Shown here: in pieces, positions 59,055 to 60,575 of the stretch
How the letters are laid out: each line of letters begins with the position of its first letter
Position numbering within the stretch: the first letter of the stretch is position 1
DNA from: Actinomycetota bacterium
GTDB taxonomy: Bacteria > Actinomycetota > Actinomycetes > JACCUZ01
Length of the DNA: 64,000 nucleotides
Direction of reading: 5' to 3'
NCBI GenBank assembly: GCA_030841035.1
Contig: JAVEDI010000033.1
Coordinates: 1 to 64,000 of the forward strand
Notes under the pieces: model-generated
What the model was told of the DNA's origin: nothing
What the model saw: only the letters and a program-made list of their open reading frames with translations
Database searches by the model: none
Translations under genes and position numbers: made by a program

Positions 59055-60356
59055 TCACGGGGAGAGGCGCTGCAGGTCGCGGGGGAAGAGGGTCACTTCC
59101 CGGACGTTGGATGCCCCCGTCAGTCGGGCGACCCAGCGCTCCAGCCCGATGGCGAAGCCGCCGTGCGGCGGCATGCCGTGGCGGAACGCCTCGAGGTAGC
59201 CGGCGTACGGCTCCGGCGACTCCCCCCGGGCGGCCAGCGCAGCCAGGTAGTCGGCGTAGCGATGCAGGCGCTGCCCGCCGGTCACCAGCTCCAGCCCGCG
59301 GAAGAGCAGGTCGAAGCTGTTGGAGTACTCGGGGCGCCCCGGCTGGGGGTGGGTGTAGAACGGCCGCTTGGCCATCGGGTAGCCCGTCACCACCACGAAG
59401 TCGCTGCCGTGTTCGCGCCGCGCCCACTCGCCCAGCCACCGCTCGTGCGCGGGCGAGAGGTCGGGTTCGCCCGAGGGGTCGACGCCGGTGCCCTCGGCGA
59501 TCAGCCGCTGGGCGTCGGCGAAGTGCAGCGAAGGCATCTCGGCAGGTACGTCGGGCAGTGGCTCGGCGAGAGCGCGCTCGTAGTCCGCGACGCGCGTGCG
59601 GATCCAGTCCAGCATGCCGGCGACGACGTCGCGCAGCACGACCAACACGTCGCGATGGTCATCGATGAAGCCCAGCTCCGCGTCCAGCGACGTGTAGCTC
59701 GCGAGGTGCCGCGCCGTGTCGTGCGGTTCGGCGCGAAACACCGGGCCGGTCTCGTAGACCCGCTCGAAGACCCCGACCATCATCTGCTTGTAGAACTGGG
59801 GGCTCTGGGCCAGAAATGCCGGGCGCCCGAAGTAGTCGAGGCCGAACACGGTGGCGCCCGACTCGGTGGCCGCGGCCACGATCTTGGGTGTCGTGACCTC
59901 CGTGAACCCGGCCGCGTCGAGCGTGGCCCGGAAGCCGGCAACCGACGCGGCGGCCATCCGGAAGACAGCCGCCCGGGCCGGATGGCGCAGCGTCACAGCC
60001 GCATGGTCGAGCAGCGTCGGAAGGGAGACCGACAGCGCCGGGCGCCACAGCTCGACCGGTGGCGGCTGTGCCGGCCCGAGCACGTCGACCACCGGGTCGA
60101 CCACCTCGACACCGCCCGGGGCCGCAGGGTTGGCGACCGCTGCACCGCGGGCGGTGACGACGGTCTCCTCGGCGAGGCGGCGTACCTGCTCGCGCCGCGT
60201 CGGCTCGCGCAGCACCAGCTGAGCCAGCCCGCTGCGGTCGCGCAGCACCACGAACGTCACCGCGGGCAGCTCGCGGACCCGATGCACCCAGCCGGACAGC
60301 GACACGCCTTCACCGGCATGGTGGCCCAGCTCGCTGGTCAACACGCGCATCGTCAT
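59055..60356 (-). CDS. aspS: Aspartyl-tRNA synthetase, archaeal/non-discriminating type
   Basis: About 433 aa, much shorter than the ~590 aa bacterial AspRS because the bacterial insertion domain is absent. N-terminal OB-fold anticodon domain (SLSGWVHRVRELPAVTFVVL), then the class II core: AQSPQFYKQMMV, motif 2 VFRAEPHDTARHLASYTSLD, and motif 3 GGFAIGLERWVARLTG with REVTLFPRD. Archaeal-type AspRS/AsnRS-like enzymes may charge both tRNA-Asp and tRNA-Asn. ATG 60356 has GGAGG 8 nt upstream, and the leader is a T-box riboswitch. Confidence 0.87.
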   Translation of the reverse strand: MTMRVLTSELGHHAGEGVSLSGWVHRVRELPAVTFVVLRDRSGLAQLVLREPTRREQVRRLAEETVVTARGAAVANPAAPGGVEVVDPVVDVLGPAQPPPVELWRPALSVSLPTLLDHAAVTLRHPARAAVFRMAAASVAGFRATLDAAGFTEVTTPKIVAAATESGATVFGLDYFGRPAFLAQSPQFYKQMMVGVFERVYETGPVFRAEPHDTARHLASYTSLDAELGFIDDHRDVLVVLRDVVAGMLDWIRTRVADYERALAEPLPDVPAEMPSLHFADAQRLIAEGTGVDPSGEPDLSPAHERWLGEWARREHGSDFVVVTGYPMAKRPFYTHPQPGRPEYSNSFDLLFRGLELVTGGQRLHRYADYLAALAARGESPEPYAGYLEAFRHGMPPHGGFAIGLERWVARLTGASNVREVTLFPRDLQRLSP

Positions 60357-60360
60357 GTGG

Positions 60361-60563
60361 TCCGCCTCCGCACCCGCACGTCGTCCTCGACTGACTGGCG
60401 TGTGCGGGCGGAGCAGGCTCCGCGGTGCCACCGCACTTCACCGTGCCCGGCGTGCGCACGGCCTCATGTGGCCCGGTGTCGGGGGCCGGTCGGCGGGTTC
60501 TAGTGAGGGCGGCGTCGCCGCCCCGTTCTTCCCGCTGCTCGGGAGTGTCTGCTCCGTCAACGC
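60361..60563 (-). promoter_or_regulatory. Translational T-box riboswitch controlling aspS
   Basis: The antisequestrator is complete: lower helix GTGCGG 60436-60431 with CCGCAC 60407-60402, the 7-nt T-box bulge TGGCACC 60430-60424, and upper helix GCGGAG 60423-60418 with CTCCGC 60413-60408 closed by a 4-nt loop. Its 3' strand can instead pair with the ribosome site: CCCGCAC 60408-60402 with GTGCGGG 60379-60373, and CTCCG 60413-60409 with CGGAG 60370-60366. That makes it a translational switch. The bulge UGGC matches NCCA with discriminator G73, as in tRNA-Asp and tRNA-Asn. A short upstream hairpin (60523-60507) carries GAC, an Asp codon, at its apex. The rest of 60576-60701 holds nothing else I can assign. 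Confidence 0.85.
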
Positions 60564-60569
60564 GGCGGC

Positions 60570-60575
60570 AGCCTA
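60570..60575 (-). promoter_or_regulatory. -10 element for the T-box-aspS transcript
   Basis: TAGGCT (minus strand) would place the transcript start near 60563 and give a ~207 nt leader. A -35 is not obvious. Confidence 0.4.

Follow-up and report, generated by a model that had tools for sequence, protein, structure and literature searches.

The question raised by this locus is whether the leader of aspS2, ~220 nt long, GC-rich and lying on the minus strand (60575-60357) between aspS2 (start 60356) and the divergent glgX (start 60702), is a T-box riboswitch, and if so which tRNA it reads and how it acts on its gene. Positions are those of the window, that is, the whole 64,000-nt stretch of actinobacterial DNA analyzed here. 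Translational T-boxes in Actinobacteria have been described on ileS (Seliverstov 2005, PMC1262725; review PMC7583486), in some cases with an ultrashort Stem I (Mycobacterium, Nocardia; PMC1262725, PMC7583486), and his T-boxes are also reported in Actinobacteria (PMC9413887). By sequence comparison, the aspS2 leader is almost certainly a T-box, and we regard the fuller reading, a translational, tRNA-Asp-specific T-box with an ultrashort Stem I that controls aspS2, as highly likely. Its predicted structure and specificity are well supported by comparison with relatives; tRNA-dependent switching and a reserve role for AspRS2 are what we infer. The features are collected in Table 1.

Table 1. Predicted features of the aspS2 leader and gene, in window positions.
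Feature	Position	Strand	Basis
Possible -10 element TAGGCT, just 5' of Stem I	60570..60575	-	Sequence; weak inference
Ultrashort Stem I hairpin GGAG-CAGACA-CUCC, K-turn-like flanks UUGAC / CGAGC	60542..60555	-	Alignment with relatives
Specifier GAC (Asp), predicted pairing with anticodon GUC of tRNA-Asp	60547..60549	-	Conserved register
Stem II: lower helix GCGGG/CCCGC, S-turn internal loop AAGAAC/CACUAGAA, upper helix GGGCGGC-GAC-GCCGCCC	60493..60535	-	MFE fold
Stem II tip GGGCGGC-GAC-GCCGCCC, loop GAC 60516-60514	60523-60507	-	Comparison with relatives
Stem IIA/B pseudoknot	60470..60492	-	Recovered in many relatives
Stem III CCGUGC/GCACGG	60441..60461	-	Sequence and MFE fold
Antisequestrator: A1, T-box bulge and A2	60402..60436	-	Covariance model R1 built without the window; covariation in relatives
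Helix A1, 6 bp	GUGCGG 60436-60431 with CCGCAC 60407-60402	-	Sequence
Bulge UGGCACC, 7 nt	60430-60424	-	Sequence
Helix A2, 6 bp	GCGGAG 60423-60418 with CUCCGC 60413-60408	-	Sequence
Competing sequestrator: A2/A1 3' strand (60413-60402) with GUGCGGGUGCGGAG (60379-60366)	60366..60413	-	Energies, Shine-Dalgarno accessibility, helix search
Shine-Dalgarno GGAGG, 8 nt 5' of ATG at 60356	60365..60369	-	Sequence
aspS2, archaeal-type AspRS, 433 aa, probably non-discriminating	59055..60356	-	NCBIfam NF003483; nearest solved structure

The gene itself is indeed of a second type, as the initial annotation had it: it is archaeal-type and distinct from the bacterial-type AspRS encoded on contig C77 of the same genome. 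Its product scores 533 bits against NF003483 (cut-off 353), a match that places it in the aspartate--tRNA(Asn) ligase family. Among solved structures the closest is that of T. thermophilus AspRS2, an enzyme labelled non-discriminating and archaeal-type. The two proteins share a His where Thermococcus AspRS has Trp (GWVW), as well as the Pro of an APGG stretch, and both residues we take to be marks of a non-discriminating AspRS. Given that no AsnRS scores above the family cut-off in the window's genome and that GatB is found there, the indirect route is presumably the source of asparaginyl-tRNA.

Antisequestrator candidates (UGGNACC flanked by helices) were sought upstream of ~75 aspS2 orthologues in other genomes, and a covariance model, R1, was built from 39 relatives with the window and its sister leader L005 left out. 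Because this window-free model matches positions 60439-60400 with 50.5 bits (E 1.9e-14), and the next-best site within the 64 kb reaches only 11.4 bits, the predicted antisequestrator is real well beyond chance. Every part that had been proposed for it (a 6-bp lower helix, a UGGCACC bulge and a GC-rich upper helix) is found on the minus strand, and the covariation in orthologous leaders that the initial annotation had named as a test is present in both helices: across 40 aligned copies, 9 of 11 pairs vary on both strands. In the same alignment 95.7% of cells are paired, compared with 35-57% when one side is slid, a percentage that is inflated because the rows were chosen by a script requiring some pairing; the two-sided changes are the stronger part of the covariation evidence. 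The fold of the whole leader is no more stable than those of shuffles (z -0.84) and its MFE structure lacks the antisequestrator, both in tests that the high GC content weakens. Elsewhere in the window's genome, model matches on contigs C14 (24.8 bits) and C99 (18.8 bits) have no leader context and resemble chance, and a third, on C49 (19.6 bits), is the ileS T-box (L088, G000:C49:8552-8593, minus strand), which is ultrashort and carries AUC and UGGU.

Which tRNA is read depends on the specifier. In alignment, the Stem I hairpin of the window falls on the base and the specifier loop of the full-length Stem I of relatives (L005, L007, L018 and others); it also aligns with GAGG-CCAUCA-CCUC in the ileS leader of the same genome. 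The specifier loop is GAA-GAC-C/A-CUCCCGAG in full-length relatives and GGAG-CA-GAC-A-CUCCCGAG in the window, with an identical 3' half. At the homologous register, GAC is present in 53 leaders (assigned by pattern, L065 left out), GAU in one (L060), and AAC in one Anaerolineales leader and several clostridial ones; the same register holds UCC where the gene is serS (L125) and AUC where it is ileS (L088). The triplet tracks the downstream gene, and on this comparison it is therefore fixed as the specifier, in line with the conservation that the initial annotation had said should be found. The same annotation had pointed to an apical GAC in a short upstream hairpin. There are two apical-GAC hairpins in the leader, neither of which it named; the GAC of the ultrashort Stem I stands, and the other was rejected as specifier, its hairpin being the tip of Stem II by comparison with relatives.

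The bulge points the same way. ARAGORN finds tRNA-Asp (GTC), tRNA-Asn (GTT) and tRNA-Ile (GAT) in the window's genome, and the discriminators read from their sequences are G73 for the first two and A73 for tRNA-Ile. The variable bulge base matches accordingly, C in the window (UGGC) with G73 and U in the ileS leader (UGGU) with A73, just as had been proposed. G73 is common to tRNA-Asp and tRNA-Asn, and a leader that reads tRNA-Asn, as would suit a non-discriminating AspRS making Asp-tRNA-Asn for GatCAB, has to be weighed. The ligase family of AspRS2, the absence of AsnRS and presence of GatB in this genome, the G73 of tRNA-Asn (with U1-A72), and the AAC specifiers of clostridial aspS2 leaders and one from Anaerolineales are in keeping with it, but we consider it very improbable: GAC, rather than AAC or AAU, is the triplet of the window and of almost every actinobacterial or chloroflexotal leader, the tRNA-Asn anticodon GUU would mispair at the first codon position, and the same element also occurs before bacterial-type aspS. 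Thus, of the Asp/Asn match originally left open, the Asp part holds and the Asn alternative is disfavored by the GAC specifier; judged from sequence, specificity for tRNA-Asp is very likely indeed. As a separate observation, the AAC (Asn) specifier occurs in clostridial leaders L073, L076, L077, L080, L084 and L085 and in Anaerolineales L054; with AAC in some leaders and GAC in others, aspS2 T-boxes differ, some sensing tRNA-Asn and others tRNA-Asp.

The Stem II internal loop, AAGAAC/CACUAGAA, is nearly identical in the ileS leader of the same genome (AAGAAC and CACUAGA are common to both), and the two leaders have the same Stem I/Stem II layout; a four-sequence whole-leader alignment with ileS was poor in Stem I (the ileS stretch was too short), and the sequences were compared directly. 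In the Stem IIA/B pseudoknot, the first helix (CGA 60492-60490 with CCG 60482-60480) forms 2 of 3 bp in the window, and the second (GGCCC 60487-60483 with GGGCC 60474-60470) is perfect. Compensatory changes occur in the second helix across many relatives. Because an automatic search for this pseudoknot returned false solutions where a leader had no clear F-box, the counts it gave are a rough guide only. At the place equivalent to the possible -10 element, relatives have TAG-containing hexamers akin to TAGGCT.

A search with the Rfam T-box model, which the initial annotation had recommended, succeeds for the relatives and fails for the window. RF00230, a model that expects a long Stem I, gives no match in the window at curated or lax thresholds, local search included; two weak matches to other Rfam models (P5, CcsR1) were dismissed as chance. 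The same model aligns end to end with the full-length relatives L017 (E 2.8e-17), L060, L018 and L021, with E-values from 2.8e-17 to 2.9e-7, all under the gathering score, and this support is independent of the script's row selection. RF00230 leaders and the Asp T-boxes of TBDB (PMC7778990) share with the window copy the specifier register, the antiterminator/antisequestrator and a putative F-box pseudoknot, and L017, L018, L021 and L060 match RF00230 from one end of the model to the other; the difference is that the window copy lacks the distal Stem I and goes undetected. The ileS T-box L088 is likewise unreported by RF00230. Because the curated Rfam model overlooks such copies, the number of actinobacterial synthetase genes under T-box control is probably underestimated.

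How would the leader act on aspS2? The 3' strand of the antisequestrator can re-pair at the GGAGG region, as had been suggested, in a 9-bp competing helix (CGCCCGCAC, 60410-60402, with GUGCGGGUG, 60379-60371) that is the strongest competitor in the window and adjoins GGAGG (60369-60365) but does not cover it, a point against full masking; alternatively, CUCC may pair with GGAG of the Shine-Dalgarno (SD) sequence. The MFE structure of the 3' part mixes both helices, and constrained ensembles were compared instead. In these models, the probability that the SD sequence is unpaired is 0.80 when the antisequestrator is imposed but 0.39 once its 5' strand is left out, and the difference drops to 0.08 when the spacer is shuffled. 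Across 43 actinobacterial leaders the median difference in SD accessibility is 0.12, with 29 rising and 3 falling (Wilcoxon p 6e-6, which is optimistic given that the leaders are related); most Streptosporangiaceae leaders show no change. The SD sequestration proposed by the initial annotation therefore works, as a model, in the window and most actinobacterial relatives. Most studied T-boxes are transcriptional, and many relatives from Chloroflexota and some from Bacillota have a longer competing hairpin followed by T-rich sequence, terminator-like in many of the chloroflexotal aspS2 leaders. That transcription arrest, and not occlusion of the ribosome site, is the main output of the window copy too is nonetheless a slim prospect, since there is no U-tract (zero T in the 9 bases 3' of the competing helix, whose end lies next to the SD sequence) and modelled SD accessibility depends on the antisequestrator. 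A translational mode is thus the probable one, on the strength of these models.

Taken as a mechanism, the anticodon GUC of uncharged tRNA-Asp would pair with the specifier, and the S-turn of Stem II and the IIA/B pseudoknot would brace this pairing. The free tRNA 3' end (G73-CCA) would then pair with UGGC of the bulge and stabilize the antisequestrator, which would occupy the CUCCGCCCGCAC strand that otherwise pairs with the region at GGAGG; with that strand occupied, the SD site would open and AspRS2 would be made. Charged tRNA would be unable to stabilize the antisequestrator, and the SD site would stay masked. AspRS2 may thereby serve as a reserve synthetase that comes into play once charging of tRNA-Asp falls behind, e.g., through failure of the resident bacterial-type AspRS or a shortage of aspartate.

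The sister locus L005, from the same family, encodes an AspRS2 that is 77% identical and is joined to the window with SH-aLRT 99, and its leader has a full-length Stem I with an AGAGA-type distal motif and GAC. In the window, only six loop bases lie between the C-stem strands, there is no AGAGA-type distal motif 5' of the specifier, and the elbow-binding distal Stem I is absent. Mapping full-length versus ultrashort Stem I onto a quick tree of 71 AspRS2 proteins requires five changes, of which well-supported branches force four; the tree has two long branches (L124, L070), neither touching the window-L005 pair. The window leader has probably lost its distal Stem I recently, a direction suggested by the wide spread of the full-length form, Chloroflexota included. 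Could the T-box simply be decaying, with tRNA binding now poor? The preserved specifier, C-stem, S-turn sequence and perfect antisequestrator speak against this despite the truncation, as do the layout, which reproduces the ileS T-box of the same genome, the repeated origin of the same shortening elsewhere, and the intact aspS2 reading frame. We therefore hold decay to be quite unlikely, even though upper Stem I is gone relative to L005, one pseudoknot helix is weakened, and AspRS2 has a patchy distribution, occurring in 2 of 8 genomes of the family.

Within the class, AspRS2 occurs in 19 of 346 genomes, and all 19 have a T-box element upstream on the same contig. An Asp T-box before a second AspRS, which had been thought unusual, is thus the usual arrangement for aspS2 in this class. 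Six further genomes of the 346 match the model. In G127 (L126) and G305 (L129), the gene behind the same antisequestrator and an ultrashort GAC hairpin is bacterial-type aspS, which encodes the usual synthetase. The matches in G145 and G257 look like chance. G181 (L124, minus strand, 8.7-Mb genome) has a full-length GAC T-box before the gene of a highly divergent protein resembling AspRS2 (38% identity with that of the window), which could be a resistance-type synthetase. In G225 (L125, minus strand, 9.4-Mb actinobacterial genome), a T-box with a full-length Stem I and specifier UCC (Ser) precedes serS (1441-152; TIGR00414), an apparent re-targeting from Asp to Ser.

These observations suggest a broader scenario, for which we judge the case evenly balanced: aspS2 and its T-box may form a patchy, tRNA-Asp-sensing reserve module in Actinomycetota and Chloroflexota, whose output has shifted between terminator and SD masking and whose distal Stem I has been lost in several independent events, one of them separating the window from its sister; a related leader would have been re-targeted to serine before serS. 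If this is true, nature provides pairs of full-length and ultrashort leaders of the same specificity.

T-boxes are well known; this one would be aspartate-specific and ultrashort, and it lies in an informative evolutionary setting. The window leader has in common with actinobacterial ileS T-boxes a specifier in a short Stem I loop, a predicted S-turn Stem II, a candidate pseudoknot, Stem III, a 7-nt-bulge antisequestrator and modelled SD sequestration; it differs in having GAC rather than AUC, UGGC rather than UGGU, aspS2 as its gene, and a Stem I apparently shortened from that of a full-length aspS2 leader. In the literature searched, ultrashort translational T-boxes are described on ileS, which makes isoleucine-specific features hard to tell; the same minimal layout would read aspartate in the same genome, and differs in specifier and bulge base. 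With a sister that keeps a long Stem I, matched pairs found in nature make it possible to test what the distal Stem I does and which features are the minimum required for tRNA choice. The T-box of the Clostridium acetobutylicum aspS2-gatCAB operon reportedly binds tRNA-Asn and tRNA-Glu (Saad 2012 and 2013, cited in PMC4206432). It resembles that of the window in standing before an archaeal-type AspRS gene, and differs in its Asn/Glu specifiers, transcriptional mode and gatCAB operon, as against GAC, a probably translational mode and aspS2 alone. The actinobacterial reference genomes of NCBI have been scanned for TBDB using a class II model (PMC7778990), and such aspS leaders may already be listed there; text searches of the accessible literature, which lacks the main subscription papers, turned up no description of an Asp T-box, miniature or full-length, in this phylum.

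Two further observations concern other aspS2 loci. In G014 (C895, L134), aspS2 starts directly after the T-box and the match to the remainder (from residue 90) lies ~3.4 kb further, so the gene seems to be split by an insertion. Finally, aspS2 leaders from Nocardioidaceae, Microbacteriaceae and Promicromonosporaceae (L015, L024, L025, L030, L031, L050 and L106-L110) combine an ultrashort Stem I with a strongly conserved block like GCGCGUCCGGCGUACCGACGAGAGGCC, which stands where Stem II would normally be; they are possibly a divergent T-box subtype without the S-turn stem.
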